64,000 nt of DNA from Litoreibacter roseus (GTDB taxonomy: Bacteria > Pseudomonadota > Alphaproteobacteria > Rhodobacterales > Rhodobacteraceae), in the NCBI RefSeq assembly GCF_009811795.1, contig NZ_BLJE01000001.1:1178001-1242000 (forward strand), written 5' to 3'. The position numbers and the translations under genes were made by a program. The notes beneath the pieces are model-generated. The model did no database searches and had not been told where the DNA came from. It worked only from the letters and a program-made list of their open reading frames with translations. Shown here in pieces: positions 47,808-56,516 of the stretch; position 1 is the stretch's first letter, and each line of letters starts with the position of its first letter.

Positions 47808-48680
47808 TCAGGTGAATTTTCGGAACAGCTTTGTCTGATCGAACATATCTTCCAAGCGCTCCATGCGGTCGAGGGTGCTGTCCCAGTTGATATCCTGAAC
47901 CGCGGCAATCACGGTCTCGATCAACAGCAGCGTGGTCGCGGCAGAGTCCCACGCGGACGGCACGACAATCCGCGTACTAAAGCAAATATCCGCGTAAGCA
48001 TGAACGGGGGAGCGCCACTGATCGGTGAACAAAATGATTTTCGCGCCTTTCTCGCGGGCCATTTCCGCCAGTTTCAGCGTGTTGCTCTCGTATCGCCGGA
48101 CGTCGAAGATCACGAAGACATCCTCTGCCTTCACGTCGAGAAGATAGTGGGGCCATGTATTGGTGGTCGACTGAATGTAGCTTACGTCTTGCCGGATGAC
48201 CTGCATGTGCAGGAACAGGTATTCGGCCATAGTGTGCGTGATCCGTCCGCCCACGATGTGAAGCCGCCTGTCTGTGTCGCCCAGTAATGCACAGGCGGCG
48301 TCGAACTCGGCTGGTTCAATTTGAGCAAGAGAGTGCCTTATGTTGTCGATCACAGCCTCGGTGAAGCGGTTCAAGACATGGCCGGACGGCGCGCCTTCGG
48401 CCCATGTGTCATGGCGCGCCATGGGCGTTTTGCCCTTCGCCTTTAATTCTTCCCGCAGTGCTGTCTGGAAGTCAGGATAACCCTTGAACCCCAGCTTCTG
48501 CACCATCCGTGCGACGGTTGGAGCGGACACATCCGCGTCTTTGGCAAGGACCGAAAGAGAGCCCAATCCGGAGGCCGGGTAGTTCTCAAGGATCGAGTGA
48601 GCGAGCTGCCGCTCGGCGCGGGTCAGTTGATCCAACTGGTTCTGAATGCGATCTGCGATGGTCAGCGCGTTATCGGGCAC
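47808..48680 (-). CDS. MurR/RpiR-family transcriptional regulator
   Basis: A 290-residue regulator. N-terminal helix-turn-helix RpiR domain (about 1-80): LTRAERQLAHSILENYP, VLAKDADVSAPTVARMVQKLGFKG. C-terminal SIS domain (about 125-270) with LHIVGGRITHTMAEYL and DVFVIFDVRRYESNT, which normally binds a phosphosugar or other small effector. Transcribed divergently from the TRAP/gamma-glutamyl operon, which it most likely controls; a candidate operator lies at 48713-48733 between them. Confidence 0.92.
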   Translation of the reverse strand: MPDNALTIADRIQNQLDQLTRAERQLAHSILENYPASGLGSLSVLAKDADVSAPTVARMVQKLGFKGYPDFQTALREELKAKGKTPMARHDTWAEGAPSGHVLNRFTEAVIDNIRHSLAQIEPAEFDAACALLGDTDRRLHIVGGRITHTMAEYLFLHMQVIRQDVSYIQSTTNTWPHYLLDVKAEDVFVIFDVRRYESNTLKLAEMAREKGAKIILFTDQWRSPVHAYADICFSTRIVVPSAWDSAATTLLLIETVIAAVQDINWDSTLDRMERLEDMFDQTKLFRKFT

Positions 48681-48712
48681 AAGCGTGGTTGCCTTATTTT
48701 TGGTTATTTTCT

Positions 48713-48733
48713 TTCAGATAAAATATGTCTGAA
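48713..48733. promoter_or_regulatory. Candidate RpiR operator in the divergent region
   Basis: TTCAGA (48713-48718) and TCTGAA (48728-48733) are perfect arms about an AT-rich nine-base centre, lying between the divergent regulator and operon starts. A TTGACA element at 48754-48759 could be the -35 of the operon promoter; the -10 is weak. Confidence 0.5.
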
Positions 48734-48801
48734 TGAAATTTTACAGTATTTTGTTGACAGAATGTATTTCGCGCAAGACGTTTGTTCAGGAAGGGGACCT
48801 G

Positions 48802-49587
48802 ATGACGGCGCGGACAACACCAGCGGATCATATGATGGACGGCCTGCCGGGTTTCGTTGTGAACCCATCCGCGTCCGGTCCAATTGTCTTGGTCTGTGAG
48901 CATGCCTCCCACTTCATTCCTGATGCTTATGACGGGCTTGGTCTGCCGGAAAACGCCCGCCAAAGCCATATCGCGTGGGATCCCGGCGCGTTCGAGGTCG
49001 CGGTTCTGCTGTCCCATCAGTTGGATGCCGTGCTCGTTGCGGGTGGCATCTCTCGGCTTGTCTACGATTGCAACCGCCCGCCGGAAGCGCCCGATGCCAT
49101 GCCCGCGCGGAGCGAAATGTTTGACGTTCCGGGCAACATTGACCTTCCCGACACAGACAAGGCTGTGCGCGTCGCTGCCATCTACGCGCCATTCCGGACC
49201 GTTGTGGCAGAAGCCTTCAAGGCAGCCAGTCGGGATGTCTTGGTCACGATCCACAGCTTTACGCCGATCTACCGCGGGCAGCCGCGCGCAGTCGAGATCG
49301 GGGTGTTACATGACGCTGACGCACGTCTTGCGGACGCAATGCTGGACCGATGTACAGCGCATACAAAACTGACGGTGAAGCGCAATGCGCCCTACGGGCC
49401 GGAAGACGGCGTAACCCACACATTGCAAGTGGACGCTCTGCCAACCGGACGCCTGAACGTGATGATCGAGATCAGAAGCGATCTTATCGAAACGTCTGAT
49501 ATGCAGGCTTCCGTTGCCGATATGCTTGGGGGCTGGTTGAAGGACGCTGTTGGATCCATCAACGCCCATGCGGAGGCCAAATGCTGA
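48802..49587 (+). CDS. N-formylglutamate amidohydrolase-family enzyme, first gene of the TRAP/gamma-glutamyl operon
   Basis: A 261-residue protein of the N-formylglutamate deformylase (FGase, Pfam05013) family. Conserved elements are LVCEHASHFIPDAYDGLG (metal-binding Glu/His), RLVYDCNRPPEAPDAMP and VTIHSFTPIYRGQPRAVEIGVL. The named family member HutG cleaves formylglutamate in histidine breakdown, but no hut genes are here. The gene leads an operon with a gamma-glutamyl ligase, so it may hydrolyse a gamma-glutamyl amide. AAGGGGA lies before the ATG at 48802. Its stop overlaps the next start by seven bases. Confidence 0.88.
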   Translation: MTARTTPADHMMDGLPGFVVNPSASGPIVLVCEHASHFIPDAYDGLGLPENARQSHIAWDPGAFEVAVLLSHQLDAVLVAGGISRLVYDCNRPPEAPDAMPARSEMFDVPGNIDLPDTDKAVRVAAIYAPFRTVVAEAFKAASRDVLVTIHSFTPIYRGQPRAVEIGVLHDADARLADAMLDRCTAHTKLTVKRNAPYGPEDGVTHTLQVDALPTGRLNVMIEIRSDLIETSDMQASVADMLGGWLKDAVGSINAHAEAKC

Positions 49588-50150
49588 GCATCGTAAGGGG
49601 GTTCATCGCCGTCATCGACGCGATCAACTATCGGATCGGACGGATCGTAATGTACGGCATCTTCGTTTTGATGGGCATTCTCTTGTGGTCTTCCGTGTCG
49701 AAGACCTTCTTCCTGCCGTCTCTCTGGACGCTCGAAATGGCCCAGTTCGCCATGGTCGCTTATTACATCCTCGGCGGACCATATTCGATCCAGATGGGGT
49801 CGAATGTGCGGATGGATCTGCTCTATGGCGGCTGGTCGTTGCTGCGGAAGGCGTGGTTTGACCTGCTGACGGTGCTGTTCCTGATGTTCTATCTGGCGGT
49901 TCTCTTGTTCGGCGCGCTCAGTTCCACCGCCTACTCCCTCGGCTATTGGGGCGGCGCACCCTTATCGTTTTTCGCGGGGCTTCTCACCGGCGCTGAAGAG
50001 GTCGGCCGAATGGAACAAAGTTCCTCCGCGTGGCGACCCTACCTTTGGCCGATCAAGGCAATCATGATCACAGGCATTTTCTTGATGCTCCTGCAGTGCC
50101 TGTCCGAGCTTCTGAAAGATGTGTTGCGATTAAAGGGCGAAACGGTCTGA
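49581..50150 (+). CDS. TRAP transporter small permease subunit (DctQ)
   Basis: A 189-residue membrane protein with four hydrophobic segments and the DctQ pattern FAMVAYYILGGPYSIQMGSNVRMDLLYGG, including the conserved VRMD. It helps couple Na+-driven import with DctM. Its start overlaps the amidohydrolase stop and its TGA overlaps the DctM start (TGATG), so the three are translationally coupled. Confidence 0.93.
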   Translation: MLSIVRGFIAVIDAINYRIGRIVMYGIFVLMGILLWSSVSKTFFLPSLWTLEMAQFAMVAYYILGGPYSIQMGSNVRMDLLYGGWSLLRKAWFDLLTVLFLMFYLAVLLFGALSSTAYSLGYWGGAPLSFFAGLLTGAEEVGRMEQSSSAWRPYLWPIKAIMITGIFLMLLQCLSELLKDVLRLKGETV

Positions 50151-51475
50151 TGCCCTATGAGATGATCGCCACGCTGATGTTCGCATCCATGATGCTGATG
50201 CTGCTGACCGGGCAGCGGGTGTTTGGGGCGATTGGCTTTGTCGCTGTGGTTGCGGCACTTCTGCTTTGGGGCGATCGGGGTGGCTACGATCTTGGCTTCG
50301 CGGCGGCCATGAAGCTGATGAAATGGTATCCACTGCTGACGCTGCCGATGTTCATTTTCATGGGGTACGTGCTGTCTGAAAGCAAAATTGCCGACGATCT
50401 CTATAGGATGTTCCATGTCTGGATGGGCGGCCTGCGTGGCGGTCTGGCCATTGGAACGATCGGGCTGATGGTTCTGATCTCTGCGATGAATGGTTTGAGC
50501 GTGGCCGGCATGGCCATTGGTTCGACCATCGCGCTGCCTGAGTTGCTGAAGCGCGGTTATGACAAGCGGATGGTCACCGGCGTCGTGCAAGCGGGGTCTT
50601 CGCTGGGCATTCTTGTGCCGCCCTCCGTTGTTCTGGTCCTTTACGCGATGATCGCACGCCAGCCCGTCGGTCAGCTGTGGCTCGCAGGGGTCGTGCCGGG
50701 GCTGATGATGGCAGCGATGTTCATTGCCTATATCGTGATCCGATGCCGCGCCAACGCCGCGTTGGGACCGGTTCTGTCAGAGCAAGAGCGTAACATTCCG
50801 ATGTCAGAAAAATTGCGACTCTTGCGAGCAGGGATCCTGCCCGTGGCGATCTTTGCGACGATGATGGTGCCATTTGTGAACGGCTGGACGTCGCTGGTCG
50901 AAAGCTCTGCCATTGGGGCGCTGGCGGCGTTTCTGGCCGCCATCCTGAAGGGACGGATGACGCGGGGCGTCTTTGAGAATTCAGTGCGCAAGACGCTGGG
51001 GATCACCTGTATGTTCATGTGGATCATTCTTGCCGCCTTGGCGTTCGGCGCAGTCTTTGACGGTCTCGGCGCCGTTAAGGCCATCGAAAGCCTATTCACC
51101 GAGCAACTGAACCTCAGCCCATGGGCCATCCTGATCCTGATGCAACTCAGCTTCATCCTGATGGGGACGTTTCTGGACGACACCGCGATGCTGGTGATCG
51201 TCGCACCGCTTTACGTGCCATTGGTGGGTGAGTTGGGGTTTGATCTGATCTGGTACGGGATCCTCTACACGATCACCACGCAGATCGCCTACATGACGCC
51301 GCCCTTTGGCTATAACCTTTTTCTCATGCGGGCTATGGCACCGCCCGAGATCACGTTGCGCGACATTTATTCTTCCATCACGCCGTTTGTTCTGGTGATG
51401 GTTCTGGCCCTTGCCTTGGTGATGATCTTTCCGGGCATCGCCACATGGCTGCCGGGGTATGTCTATGGAACTTAA
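50150..51475 (+). CDS. TRAP transporter large permease subunit (DctM)
   Basis: A 441-residue membrane protein with about twelve hydrophobic segments. MLMLLTGQRVFGAIGFV and PLLTLPMFIFMGYVLSESKIA are typical, with the DctM signature GLSVAGMAIGSTIALPELLKRGYDK and GSSLGILVPPSVVLVLYAMI. The late motif MGTFLDDTAMLVIVAPLYVPL is also conserved. The ATG at 50150 overlaps the DctQ stop; the longer frame from 50030 is a shadow. It imports the ligand delivered by the DctP protein encoded next. Confidence 0.95.
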   Translation: MPYEMIATLMFASMMLMLLTGQRVFGAIGFVAVVAALLLWGDRGGYDLGFAAAMKLMKWYPLLTLPMFIFMGYVLSESKIADDLYRMFHVWMGGLRGGLAIGTIGLMVLISAMNGLSVAGMAIGSTIALPELLKRGYDKRMVTGVVQAGSSLGILVPPSVVLVLYAMIARQPVGQLWLAGVVPGLMMAAMFIAYIVIRCRANAALGPVLSEQERNIPMSEKLRLLRAGILPVAIFATMMVPFVNGWTSLVESSAIGALAAFLAAILKGRMTRGVFENSVRKTLGITCMFMWIILAALAFGAVFDGLGAVKAIESLFTEQLNLSPWAILILMQLSFILMGTFLDDTAMLVIVAPLYVPLVGELGFDLIWYGILYTITTQIAYMTPPFGYNLFLMRAMAPPEITLRDIYSSITPFVLVMVLALALVMIFPGIATWLPGYVYGT

Positions 51476-51532
51476 CAAGAAAGAGAGCCCGAGCAGACGG
51501 GCCGAACCTCATCCAACATAAGGAGCGTAAAG

Positions 51533-52564
51533 ATGACCACAAGACGTAAGTTTATTCAGGGGGCGGCCGTTGCGCCCGCCGCGGGACTTGCCGCGCCAGC
51601 CCTCGCGCAGGGCACCATCACCTGGCGCCTTCAGACCTATGCCGGTGCGGCGTTGGCCGAACATGTAATCAAGCCTGCGATTGACAGCTTCAACAAGATC
51701 GCGGGCGATCAGATGCAGATCGAGCTCTACTTTGCCGACCAGCTTGTCCCCACGGGCGAGTTGTTTCAGGCCATGCAGCGCGGCACGATTGACGCCGTTC
51801 AATCCGACGATGACAGCATGGCATCGCCCACGGATGTAACAGTGTTCGGCGGCTACTTTCCGTTCGCTTCCCGCTATTCGCTGGATGTGCCGGTGTTGTT
51901 CAACCAATACGGACTGAACGAGATCTGGGACGAGCAGTACTCAGCCCTCGGTGTAAAGCACATCAGCGCGGGCGCTTGGGATCCGTGCCATTTTGCGACA
52001 AAAGATCCCATTCGCAGCTTGGCTGATCTGGAAGGCAAACGGGTCTTCACCTTCCCAACGGCGGGTCGCTTCATGAGCCAGTTCGGTGTCGTCCCGGTCA
52101 ACCTGCCTTGGGAGGATATCGAGGTCGCGGTTCAGACCGGCGAGTTGGACGGCATCGCGTGGTCCGGGATCACCGAGGACTACACCGTCGGCTGGGCAGA
52201 TGTGACAAACTACTTCCTGACCAACAATATTTCAGGCGCATGGGCCGGGTCGTTCTTTGCGAACATGGAACGCTGGAACGAACTGCCCGAGAACCTGCAG
52301 GAACTTCTGCGCATGTGCATGGATCAGTCGCACTACTATCGCCAGTGGTGGTATTGGGGCGGCGAGGCAAGCTTGCGGGTGGAAGGTACGAAGATGGAAC
52401 TGACCACCATTCCCGATGATGAATGGGCGACCGTCGAGACCGCAGCGCTTGAGTTCTGGGAAGAGATCGCTGCCGAAAGCGATGTGAAACGGCGGGTCGT
52501 GGACATCCTGAAGCAGTACAATGCGACAATGGAAAAGGCGGGGCGGCCCTACCGCTACAGCTAA
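51533..52564 (+). CDS. TRAP transporter substrate-binding protein (DctP), Tat-exported
   Basis: A 343-residue periplasmic binding protein. The signal peptide MTTRRKFIQGAAVAPAAGLA has a twin-arginine (RRKF) and cleaves near ALAQ. The body has the DctP layout: LVPTGELFQAMQRGTIDAVQ, PFASRYSLDVPVLFNQYG and ADLEGKRVFTFPTAGRFMSQ. In most DctP proteins the beta-strand after the G-K/L element ends with a conserved Arg (R-V-P) that holds the ligand carboxylate; here the segment is VFTFP, so the Arg seems absent, with R179 nearby. This may mean a ligand without a carboxylate. The ATG follows AAGGAG. Confidence 0.93.
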   Translation: MTTRRKFIQGAAVAPAAGLAAPALAQGTITWRLQTYAGAALAEHVIKPAIDSFNKIAGDQMQIELYFADQLVPTGELFQAMQRGTIDAVQSDDDSMASPTDVTVFGGYFPFASRYSLDVPVLFNQYGLNEIWDEQYSALGVKHISAGAWDPCHFATKDPIRSLADLEGKRVFTFPTAGRFMSQFGVVPVNLPWEDIEVAVQTGELDGIAWSGITEDYTVGWADVTNYFLTNNISGAWAGSFFANMERWNELPENLQELLRMCMDQSHYYRQWWYWGGEASLRVEGTKMELTTIPDDEWATVETAALEFWEEIAAESDVKRRVVDILKQYNATMEKAGRPYRYS

Positions 52565-52573
52565 GATACTTTT

Positions 52574-52603
52574 GATCGGGGGCTGTTTCTGCGGCCCTCG
52601 ATC
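52574..52603 (+). promoter_or_regulatory. Strong intercistronic hairpin between dctP and the glutamine-synthetase-like gene
   Basis: GATCGGGGGC (52574-52583) pairs with GCCCTCGATC (52594-52603), ten pairs with one G-T and a ten-base loop. No T-run follows. Hairpins after genes for abundant binding proteins often protect the upstream mRNA 3' end and reduce reading into downstream genes; such a role is likely here. Confidence 0.6.
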
Positions 52604-52627
52604 CACCCAAAGTGAAAGACCTCTGAC

Positions 52628-53992
52628 ATGCCCGGCACTCTGAGCTTTGACGATCTAAAATCCCGTGTCTCTGATGGCAGCATCGACACGGTGCTTGTTT
52701 GTCTGGTGGACATGCAGGGGCGGCTGATGGGCAAGCGGTTCCACGCCGCGAATTTCATCGAAATCTCTTACGATGAAACCCATTGCTGCAATTATCTGCT
52801 GGCCACGGATCTGGAGATGGCTACGCCGGATGGCTACGCCTCGACCAGCTGGCAATCGGGCTATGGCGACTACGTGATGAAGCCTGATCGGGAAACGATC
52901 CGACCCGTGCCGTGGCTTGAAGGCACGGCGATGGTCCTCTGTGATGTCTTGGACCATCACACGCATGACCCGGTGCCGCATGCGCCTCGGGCGGTTCTTA
53001 AAAAGCAGATCGCTCGGCTGGAGGCTCTTGGGTTCACCGCCATGATGGCGACTGAGCTGGAGTTTTTCCTGTTTGAGCGCAGCTTTGATGCCTTGCGCAA
53101 AGACGGCTACCGAAACCTTGATCCGATCAGCGGATACAACGAAGATTACCACATTCTCCAGACCACTAAGGAAGAGGTCGTGATGCGCCCGTTGCGCAAT
53201 CACCTCTACGCCGCTGGCCTGCCCGTCGAAAATACGAAGGGCGAGGCCGAAGCCGGGCAGGAAGAGTTGAACATCCGCTACGCCCCGGCGCTGGATTGCG
53301 CCGACCATCATACAATTGCGAAACACGCTGTTAAGGAGATCGCTTGGCAGGCTGGGCATGCAGCAACGTTCCTGCCAAAGTGGTCCGCCGACCGGGTCGG
53401 CAGTTCCAGCCATGTCCATCAGTCGCTTTGGAAGGACAAAATCGCGCTGTTTCAGGACAGCGAGGATCCTTTGGGGATGTCTGATTTGATGAAGCACTAT
53501 ATGGCAGGGCTGATCGCCTATGCGCCGGAGTACATGGTTTTCCTGGCTCCCTATGTGAACAGCTACAAGCGCTTCGCCAAAGGGACATTTGCACCCACTA
53601 AAACCGTCTGGTCCGTGGACAATCGCACCGCGGGGTTCCGGCTGTGCGGTGTGGGAACCAAGGGCGTGCGGGTAGAATGCAGGATCGGTGGATCCGACCT
53701 GAATCCCTACCTTGCGCAGGCTGGGATGCTGGCTGCGGGTATAAAAGGCATTGAAGACAAGATGGAATTGGCGCCCGCAACCAAGGGGGACGTGTATGAG
53801 GATGCCGACGCACAGGAAATTCCGCGCACCCTGCGTGCGGCAACGGAAACACTGCAAGGCTCTGCGATGTTGCGGGCGGCGATGGGGGATGACGTGATCG
53901 ACCACTACACCCGTGCAGCAGAGTGGGAACAGGAAGAATACGACCGCGCCGTGACCGATTGGGAAATCGCACGCGGCTTTGAGAGGGCTTGA
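52628..53992 (+). CDS. Glutamine-synthetase-family ligase (GlnT/PuuA-like gamma-glutamylamide synthetase)
   Basis: A 454-residue type I glutamine synthetase fold enzyme. N-terminal beta-grasp with VCLVDMQGRLMGKRF; catalytic metal site MATELEFFLFE, then NIRYAPALDCADHH and SSSHVHQSLWKD; ATP and glutamate sites NRTAGFRLCGVGTKGVRVECRIGGSDLNPYL. True glutamine synthetase normally has NRSA...RIP and an adenylylation loop; this form diverges there, as in PuuA, IpuC and GlnA4 enzymes that join glutamate to amines rather than ammonia. In the operon it would gamma-glutamylate the imported amine; that substrate is an inference. ALDH and Fe-ADH genes follow at once. Confidence 0.88.
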   Translation: MPGTLSFDDLKSRVSDGSIDTVLVCLVDMQGRLMGKRFHAANFIEISYDETHCCNYLLATDLEMATPDGYASTSWQSGYGDYVMKPDRETIRPVPWLEGTAMVLCDVLDHHTHDPVPHAPRAVLKKQIARLEALGFTAMMATELEFFLFERSFDALRKDGYRNLDPISGYNEDYHILQTTKEEVVMRPLRNHLYAAGLPVENTKGEAEAGQEELNIRYAPALDCADHHTIAKHAVKEIAWQAGHAATFLPKWSADRVGSSSHVHQSLWKDKIALFQDSEDPLGMSDLMKHYMAGLIAYAPEYMVFLAPYVNSYKRFAKGTFAPTKTVWSVDNRTAGFRLCGVGTKGVRVECRIGGSDLNPYLAQAGMLAAGIKGIEDKMELAPATKGDVYEDADAQEIPRTLRAATETLQGSAMLRAAMGDDVIDHYTRAAEWEQEEYDRAVTDWEIARGFERA

Positions 53993-53995
53993 GCC

Positions 53996-55366
53996 ATGAT
54001 CCGTTGTATCTCGCCAATTGACGGCTCCGTTTATGCGGAGCGTGAAACGTTGTCTTTCGGTGACGCGCAATCTGCCGTGACCCGCGCGCGCGCGGCGCAA
54101 TCCGAATGGGCGGCGCAGTCCCTCGCGGACCGTATTGCCCGTGTCCGGGAAGGCGTCGCGAATGTTGGCGCGATGAACGACGAGATCGTGGAGGAACTGG
54201 CGTGGCAGATGGGACGTCCGATCCGATACGGCGGCGAGTTTGGCGGCTTCGAGGAGCGCGCCACCCATATGGCCGATATCGCCGCCGAAGCACTGGCGCC
54301 TATTCAGATCGAGAACAGCGCTGCGTTTCGCCGGATTATCAAGCGGGTCCCGCATGGGATTGTTCTGGTCGTGGCCCCTTGGAACTATCCCTACATGACG
54401 GCCATCAATACGGTGGCCCCCGCGCTGATTGCGGGGAATGCTGTGATGCTCAAGCACGCCTCCCAAACCCCGCTGGTGGGCGAACGGATGGCGCAGGCGT
54501 TTCATGACGCGGGTATACCTGAAGAAGTTTTCCAGAACGTTTTTCTGGATCACCAGACCACTTCGGATCTGATCGCGCGCAGATCATTCGACTTTGTCAA
54601 TTTTACCGGGTCTGTTGAGGGCGGCAAAGCGATGGAACAGGCCGCAGCTGGCACGTTTGCGAGCATGGGGTTGGAGCTCGGCGGAAAAGATCCAGGCTAC
54701 GTTATGGATGACGCGGATCTGGATGTCGCGGTCGATACGCTCATAGACGGGGCCATGTTCAACTCGGGCCAATGCTGCTGCGGCATCGAGCGCATCTATG
54801 TGGTTGAGAGCCTGTTTGATGCGTTCGTTGAGAAGGCCGTCGCGCTGGTCAATACGTATAAGCTGGGCAACCCACTCGACCCCGAAACAACCCTTGGTCC
54901 TATGGCACAGGCGCGCTTTGCCGACCATGTTCGCGCACAAACGGCCGAGGCCATTGCGGCGGGGGCGACGGCTCATATCGACACCACGCTGTTCCCGCAG
55001 GACGGAGGTGCGTACCTGATGCCGCAGATCCTGACAAATGTGGATCACTCCATGCGTGTTATGCAGGAAGAAAGTTTTGGACCGGTCGTGGGGGTAATGC
55101 CCGTCAAGGGCGACGCTGAGGCAGTTCAGCTGATGAACGACAGTAGCTACGGCCTGACCGCATCCCTTTGGACAAAGGACGTCGCGCGGGCGGAGCGGAT
55201 TGCAGATCAGATCGAGACGGGGACCGTCTTCATGAACCGCGCGGATTACCTTGATCCGGGCCTGTGCTGGACCGGTTGCAAGGACACGGGCCGCGGCGGT
55301 GGGTTGTCCATGATCGGTTACCACACCCTGACACGCCCGAAATCCTACCACCTGAAGAAAGCCTGA
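53996..55366 (+). CDS. Aldehyde dehydrogenase family protein
   Basis: A 456-residue NAD(P)-dependent enzyme that turns an aldehyde into an acid. Catalytic C261 in FNSGQCCCGIERI and general base E227 in MGLELGGKDP; the cofactor segment is VVAPWNYPYMTAINTVAPAL, and the late NDSSYGLTASLWTKD is conserved. The ATG at 53996 comes 3 bases after the ligase stop and its own stop is 4 bases before the alcohol dehydrogenase start. In context it probably oxidises the aldehyde made by the next enzyme while still bearing the gamma-glutamyl group. It is in the succinate-semialdehyde-like branch but the substrate is not proven. Confidence 0.92.
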   Translation: MIRCISPIDGSVYAERETLSFGDAQSAVTRARAAQSEWAAQSLADRIARVREGVANVGAMNDEIVEELAWQMGRPIRYGGEFGGFEERATHMADIAAEALAPIQIENSAAFRRIIKRVPHGIVLVVAPWNYPYMTAINTVAPALIAGNAVMLKHASQTPLVGERMAQAFHDAGIPEEVFQNVFLDHQTTSDLIARRSFDFVNFTGSVEGGKAMEQAAAGTFASMGLELGGKDPGYVMDDADLDVAVDTLIDGAMFNSGQCCCGIERIYVVESLFDAFVEKAVALVNTYKLGNPLDPETTLGPMAQARFADHVRAQTAEAIAAGATAHIDTTLFPQDGGAYLMPQILTNVDHSMRVMQEESFGPVVGVMPVKGDAEAVQLMNDSSYGLTASLWTKDVARAERIADQIETGTVFMNRADYLDPGLCWTGCKDTGRGGGLSMIGYHTLTRPKSYHLKKA

Positions 55367-55370
55367 GCCC

Positions 55371-56516
55371 ATGTCCCTGATTGCTAACTGGTCTTACCCA
55401 ACCGCCATTCGCTTTGGGGCAGGGCGGATATCGGAGATCGCCGACGCGTGCGCGACTGCCGGGATGAAGAAGCCATTGCTGGTGACCGATAAGGGGTTGG
55501 CCGACATGGCAATCACCCGGCAGACTTTGGATCTGATGGAGGCGGCAGGACTGGGCCGCGCGATGTTCTCTGATGTTGATCCCAATCCAACCGAGCTCAA
55601 CGCTGACGCCGGGATCGGCGCTTTCAAGGATGGCGTCCACGACGGAGTGATAGCATTCGGCGGGGGCTCCGGGCTTGATCTGGGCAAGCTGGTTGCGTTC
55701 ATGGCGGGCCAAACGCGGCCGATTTGGGATTTTGAGGATATTGGCGATTGGTGGACCCGCGCGGATGCGGACGCCATTGCGCCCATCGTGGCTGTTCCCA
55801 CTACGGCTGGCACCGGGTCCGAGGTCGGGCGGGCCAGTGTTATCACCAACAGCCAAACTCACGAGAAGAAGATCATCTTCCATCCCAAATTTTTGCCGAG
55901 CGTTGTGATTTGCGATCCCGAACTGACCGTCGGAATGCCCAAGATGATTACGGCAGGCACGGGCATGGACGCTTTCGCCCATTGTCTGGAGGCGTATTGC
56001 TCGCCGCACTATCATCCCATGTCCCAAGGCATTGCGTTGGAGGGGATGCGGCTCGTGAAAGAAAACCTTCTTGTGGCGTATCACGAGGGCGGCAACCTCG
56101 AGGCGCGCGGGCATATGATGTCAGCGGCTGCGATGGGTGCGACCGCGTTTCAAAAGGGTCTGGGCGCGATCCACGCGTTGTCCCATCCTGTTGGCGCTGT
56201 CCATCACACGCACCACGGCACGACCAACGCGGTCGTTATGCAAAATGTGTTGTCCTTCAACAGGCCTGCCATTGACGCGCGGATCGAACAGGCTGCGCAT
56301 TATCTTGGGATCGAGGGCGGGTTTGACGGGTTTTATACCTATGTCGGCGATTTAATTGCGGAACTCGGCATTCCGAAGACGTTGACCGGTCTTGGCGTCC
56401 GGGATCCCGACGTTGAAGCGCTGGTGGCCTCAGCCCTGCGGGATCCAAGTTGCGGCGGCAATCCAATTGAGATGACCGAGACAAACACGCGAGAGCTTTT
56501 GCTGGCCTGTCTTTAG
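55371..56516 (+). CDS. Iron-containing alcohol dehydrogenase
   Basis: A 381-residue group III metal alcohol dehydrogenase. Metal ligands match E. coli FucO D196/H200/H263/H277: D200 and H204 in GMDAFAHCLEAY, H268 in AIHALSHPVGAV and H282 in HTHHGTTN. NAD-binding glycines are in AFGGGSGLDLGK (96-107). It interconverts an alcohol and aldehyde in the cytosol. As the last gene of the operon, with ALDH upstream, it likely feeds an amino-alcohol-derived intermediate to it. 4-hydroxybutyrate dehydrogenase is another possible role of this family. ATG at 55371 has no strong ribosome site but is coupled to ALDH. Confidence 0.92.
   Translation: MSLIANWSYPTAIRFGAGRISEIADACATAGMKKPLLVTDKGLADMAITRQTLDLMEAAGLGRAMFSDVDPNPTELNADAGIGAFKDGVHDGVIAFGGGSGLDLGKLVAFMAGQTRPIWDFEDIGDWWTRADADAIAPIVAVPTTAGTGSEVGRASVITNSQTHEKKIIFHPKFLPSVVICDPELTVGMPKMITAGTGMDAFAHCLEAYCSPHYHPMSQGIALEGMRLVKENLLVAYHEGGNLEARGHMMSAAAMGATAFQKGLGAIHALSHPVGAVHHTHHGTTNAVVMQNVLSFNRPAIDARIEQAAHYLGIEGGFDGFYTYVGDLIAELGIPKTLTGLGVRDPDVEALVASALRDPSCGGNPIEMTETNTRELLLACL

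Follow-up and report, generated by a model that had tools for sequence, protein, structure and literature searches.

Ethanolamine catabolism by gamma-glutamylation and a locus of Litoreibacter roseus

Ethanolamine is a building block of phospholipids and serves as head group in one of the major lipids of membranes. Here, we analysed a gene cluster of Litoreibacter roseus within a 64,000-nt stretch of contig NZ_BLJE01000001.1 (this whole stretch is called the window, and all positions are coordinates in it) as a probable ethanolamine catabolic (eto) operon. An ethanolamine operon has been described in Phaeobacter sp. MED193 (Westermann et al., 2023; PMC10132767, Fig. 5C and Table 2). Its locus tags run from an RpiR regulator (MED193_10021) through a gamma-glutamylglycine amidohydrolase (10026), the EtoV, EtoW and EtoX components of a tripartite ATP-independent periplasmic (TRAP) transporter (10031, 10036 and 10041) and an ethanolamine gamma-glutamylase (10046) to gamma-glutamylacetaldehyde-amide dehydrogenase (10051) and gamma-glutamylethanolamide dehydrogenase (10056). 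The amidohydrolase, EtoX, the ligase and the aldehyde and alcohol dehydrogenases of MED193 increase on phosphoethanolamine, and purified MED193 EtoX binds ethanolamine with a dissociation constant (Kd) of 7.9 ± 1.9 μM (PMC10132767). According to the same paper, PhoX contributes to the release of ethanolamine from phosphoethanolamine in MED193, and the eto transporter is abundant and expressed across the ocean; Vetting et al. (2015) is cited there for the pathway in Chromohalobacter salexigens and Agrobacterium tumefaciens. In addition, the GlnA4 route proposed for Streptomyces coelicolor comprises a gamma-glutamylethanolamide synthetase and two oxidations, with an FGase-family hydrolase proposed for gamma-glutamylglycine (PMC6529630).

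Eight open reading frames (ORFs) are present in the window: seven tightly spaced genes on the plus strand (~48802-56516) and, facing away from them on the minus strand, an RpiR gene. A Pfam search placed all eight proteins in the expected families above the cut-off, confirming the layout and the families proposed in an earlier note on this DNA. The author of that note had also been aware of no earlier description of such an operon and had left novelty to a literature search; the suggestion of novelty fails because the same eight genes were already published (PMC10132767), and the window adds a further example of them. We estimate the probability that the window genes form an eto operon at about 0.93. 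The remaining parts of the proposal agree both with the published eto assignment and with the homologies seen in this analysis, namely its own TRAP importer, an adjacent RpiR gene, a glutamine synthetase (GS)-like ligase, an iron-containing alcohol dehydrogenase in place of PuuB, an aldehyde dehydrogenase and an FGase-like hydrolase that would free glutamate. The substrate is most likely ethanolamine, as the note had suggested, on the grounds of the assignment in PMC10132767 and the 81% identity of the window EtoX to ethanolamine-bound 4UAB.

In the proposed pathway, ethanolamine would be imported by an EtoVWX TRAP transporter, consisting of the small permease (EtoV/DctQ, 49581..50150, plus strand as are the genes that follow; DctQ, 51.3 bits), the large permease (EtoW/DctM, 50150..51475; DctM, 218.3 bits) and a putative ethanolamine-binding protein with a twin-arginine signal (EtoX/DctP, 51533..52564; DctP, 70.5 bits). 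The GS-like ligase, a probable ethanolamine gamma-glutamylase (52628..53992; Gln-synt_C, 319.8 bits), would join ethanolamine to the gamma-carboxyl of glutamate using ATP. The iron-containing alcohol dehydrogenase, a probable gamma-glutamylethanolamide dehydrogenase (55371..56516; Fe-ADH, 160.1 bits), would oxidize the alcohol to gamma-glutamylacetaldehyde amide, and the aldehyde dehydrogenase, a probable gamma-glutamylacetaldehyde dehydrogenase (53996..55366; Aldedh, 384.6 bits), would convert this to gamma-glutamylglycine; both dehydrogenases have MED193 counterparts. The FGase-family amidohydrolase, a probable gamma-glutamylglycine amidohydrolase (GGAH, 48802..49587; FGase, 123.5 bits), could then free glutamate together with glycine. 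The divergently encoded RpiR protein (47808..48680, minus strand; SIS, 65.7 bits, and HTH_6, 60 bits), counterpart of MED193_10021, presumably controls the operon. Two elements of this scheme, ethanolamine binding by EtoX and the increase of five operon proteins on phosphoethanolamine, come from relatives elsewhere and would extend to L. roseus by analogy. According to the ORF coordinates, the amidohydrolase and DctQ genes overlap by 7 bases and the DctQ and DctM genes by 1 base, and the gaps that follow measure 57 bases (DctM to DctP), 63 bases (DctP to ligase), 3 bases (ligase to aldehyde dehydrogenase) and 4 bases (aldehyde to alcohol dehydrogenase).

Ligase, amidohydrolase and binding protein

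Among solved structures, the ligase comes closest to 5dm3 (E = 1.2e-227), followed by 11zs (E = 8.3e-175), and the third is far behind (E = 9.5e-52). We take 5DM3 to be Csal_0679, adjoining Csal_0678. Membership in the broad Gln-synt_C family would also suit an ordinary or regulatory glutamine synthetase, in which case the cluster would be a TRAP/dehydrogenase operon acting on some unrelated compound without an amine group, but the ligase reached only 242.5 bits against the NCBIfam GlnA model (cut-off 429.15) and 239.4 bits against the type III glutamine synthetase model (cut-off 469.6), and it was also far under the GlnII cut-off. Three other GS-family matches were found in the genome, one of which, at 582.1 bits across a 398-residue part (cut-off 429.15), is a true GlnA. 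Together with a binding protein that is without the arginine typical of carboxylate binders, and with the increase and binding data published for the same operon (PMC10132767), these results make an ordinary glutamine synthetase next to inconceivable here. The score against the gamma-glutamylputrescine synthetase model was likewise low (204.9 bits, cut-off 650), which sets the ligase apart from Puu enzymes. The two further GS-like ligases of the genome lie together on contig C3, under every cut-off; in this region (C3:187219-190623; L002 and L003), an amidotransferase-like ORF is situated between the ligases and a FAD (flavin adenine dinucleotide)-oxidase-like ORF beside them, both named from their translations, forming a Puu-like set. 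As for the amidohydrolase, the only solved relative at an E-value cut-off of 0.001 was 2odf, annotated as 'Hypothetical protein Atu2144' (E = 1.3e-78), and NCBIfam gave it no match.

The closest solved relative of the window EtoX is 4uab/4xf5 (E = 3.4e-184). The 4UAB structure is that of C. salexigens Csal_0678 with bound ethanolamine, held via the platform glutamate Glu220 (PMC12410723), and Csal_0678 is without the arginine that TRAP binding proteins usually carry (PMC4646407). In the alignment, F172 of the window EtoX stands opposite the arginine of 2hzk (SmoM). The window protein is thus both near 4UAB and devoid of the TRAP arginine.

Conservation of the operon and two EtoX lineages

Conservation was assessed in the best 80 of at least 586 confirmed ligase relatives in named genomes, a selection that favours close relatives. 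In an ORF test, all eight genes stood in the same order and orientation in 53 of the 80 relatives, the recurrence for which the earlier note had proposed a search, and the arrangement is not due to chance because so many relatives keep it. For two of the 27 relatives failing this test (L064 and L081), tblastn recovered the same order, and six (L056, L065, L078, L082, L095 and L102) are short loci truncated where their contigs stop. Ligase matches at E ≤ 1e-100 were also present in 59 of 100 same-family genomes, own genome included; this set and the named-genome set may contain the same species twice.

Several loci differ in gene content. TRAP genes, ligase and alcohol dehydrogenase without an aldehyde dehydrogenase match were seen in L049, L070 and L100, and L049 is also without RpiR and amidohydrolase, while L054 and L055 have no alcohol dehydrogenase match. 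Only ligase and alcohol dehydrogenase matched in L058, L059, L066, L075 and L111 (pair coordinates L058:8926-11541 and L066:9001-11636), with no aldehyde dehydrogenase, TRAP or amidohydrolase match nearby; in L058, the pair is followed by an ORF that its translation suggests to be hydantoinase-like. The amidohydrolase, ligase and both dehydrogenases are present with no EtoX match in L087, L088, L096, L103 and L107, and L069, L083, L104 and L109 gave matches to the ligase and the two dehydrogenases only. The ligase relatives of L100 and L109 (74% identity), with further operon genes, stand on contigs labelled Granulosicoccaceae and Rhodothermales, labels that could reflect gene transfer or mis-binned contigs of metagenome-assembled genomes.

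EtoX proteins were divided into two lineages, the second having less than 72% identity to the window EtoX. The second-lineage label fell on 23 of 89 relatives in a first split and on 23 of 88 rows in a second; the 88-row set included the window, left out L001-L004 and held loci with both EtoX and ligase at 90% coverage. The majority residues of the lineages differ at 29 positions, and the second-lineage residues, relative to the window, include W149Q, H153N, F172Y, W193Y and Y268T. They are carried by 22 of the 23 labelled proteins; 22 is the cleaner count because L025 has first-lineage residues, and the trees used 23 labels. The second lineage is ~64% identical to 4UAB. E215 is identical in all 88 EtoX rows, window included, and under an assumed numbering difference our own mapping would equate it with the platform Glu220 of Csal_0678.

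On FastTree trees of the 88 loci, with one label doubtful, the lineage label requires at least 13 changes on the ligase tree and 1 on the EtoX tree. Labels shuffled on the ligase tree (300 shuffles) gave a mean of 20.4 changes and a minimum of 16. Taken together, these counts suggest that the EtoX lineage travelled in part with the ligase and was in part swapped. Second-lineage EtoX occurs in otherwise similar operons (L048, L051, L060, L108 and others), scattered over the ligase tree. The second lineage may have a different ligand or may result merely from gene exchange. A wider interpretation, in which the enzymes are orthologous and serve a general gamma-glutamylation of amino alcohols while the binding protein was repeatedly swapped between lineages, the second perhaps importing another amino alcohol, seems to us rather unlikely.

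The same data bear on whether the chief substrate of the pathway is instead a different small amino alcohol, for instance 2-aminopropanol (alaninol), ethanolamine being a secondary ligand. The difference between the lineages at 29 positions would fit such a preference, as would 4xf5, a second structure entry with the same sequence as 4UAB, whose ligand is presumably 2-amino-1-propanol. The window EtoX, however, carries the residues of the ethanolamine-bound 4UAB lineage at the compared positions, and the published protein increase is on phosphoethanolamine (PMC10132767), so that we consider this alternative very improbable and retain ethanolamine as the likely substrate.

Several observations weigh against assigning the window genes to an eto operon. 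Outside the contig-cut loci, 19 of the 27 failing relatives are without matches to at least one gene, and the gene set is thus not always complete. The counterpart of E215 is position 217 of the deposited 4UAB chain, in which position 220 is a threonine. NCBIfam gave no specific name above cut-off for the amidohydrolase, ligase, aldehyde dehydrogenase, alcohol dehydrogenase or RpiR protein, and the family libraries leave the substrates of the two dehydrogenases and the amidohydrolase unfixed. MED193 EtoX also increases under plain phosphate starvation (Table 2, PMC10132767), and the legend of Fig. 5 in that paper reads 'Predicted'. Moreover, the papers disagree on the extent to which the C. 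salexigens pathway is proven, which is an 'in silico' prediction in PMC6529630 and demonstrated in PMC10132767, and activities of the individual enzymes of this operon type were not found in the parts of either paper that were available.

Control region, genome context and known systems

Upstream regions were taken from 62 loci, window included and L031 left out. After removal of L086, L093, L097 and L105 (RpiR <40% identical) and of L072 and L077 (no TTGAC anchor), two final sets remained, with 34 regions (RpiR ≥66% identical) and 22 regions (RpiR 40-66%). Alignment of the 34 regions on TTGAC showed that TTGAC(A) is kept, with a palindromic element before it. In the window, the gap between the rpiR and amidohydrolase genes (48681-48801) holds the conserved TTGACA (48754..48759, plus strand), the probable -35 of the operon, with no good -10; despite this motif, a simple sigma-70 consensus scan returned no promoter at the operon start. 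Because TTGACA sits at 48754-48759, the ATG at 48802 is more likely the start of the amidohydrolase gene than the longest-ORF start at 48733. The imperfect palindrome CTGAATGAAATTTTACAG (48729..48746, plus strand) lies upstream of the -35, with three of the five scored arm pairs matching. In L052, L055 and L064, among other rows, the element reads TGTGA-N6-TCACA, and several of the 22 regions with more distant RpiR have TGTAG-N6-CTACA.

For arms starting at -24 with a 6-base gap, the 34 regions gave a mean of 3.0 of 5 pairs, compared with a maximum of 2.24 in 200 shuffled sets, and in the 22 regions the best pair scored 3.05 versus a shuffled maximum of 2.36; the shuffles ignore kinship, and the upstream sequences are related. 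Three further arm pairs scored 3.0-3.56 in the 34 regions, values that are partly built in because these arms touch or overlap the anchored TTGAC. These results suggest that the conserved palindromic element is a candidate RpiR operator.

No EutB match was found in the L. roseus genome (99.98% complete), with a positive E. coli control. MED193 uses PhoX, whereas the L. roseus genome gave no match to PhoX (PF05787); ethanolamine may here come from another phosphatase or be taken up free. Still of use are the direct enzymology of the four enzymes, the putative operator of RpiR and the significance of the split of EtoX into two lineages.

Among known systems, the Puu pathway for putrescine has a gamma-glutamyl ligase, an aldehyde oxidation and a final amide hydrolysis in common with the window, but its FAD oxidase and class-I amidotransferase families are absent from the eight genes by Pfam. 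In the C. salexigens set, Csal_0678 (4UAB, 4XF5) is 81% identical to the window EtoX, and 5dm3 is the top solved relative of the window ligase. The S. coelicolor GlnA4 route shares the ligase, the two oxidations and the FGase-family last step, although the legend of Fig. 2 in PMC6529630 lists a short-chain dehydrogenase and no alcohol dehydrogenase, and its transporter and regulator are different. The MED193 eto operon contains the same eight kinds of gene in the same locus-tag order as the window, compared by kind and order rather than by alignment, and includes an ethanolamine-binding TRAP protein, as is proposed for L. roseus.

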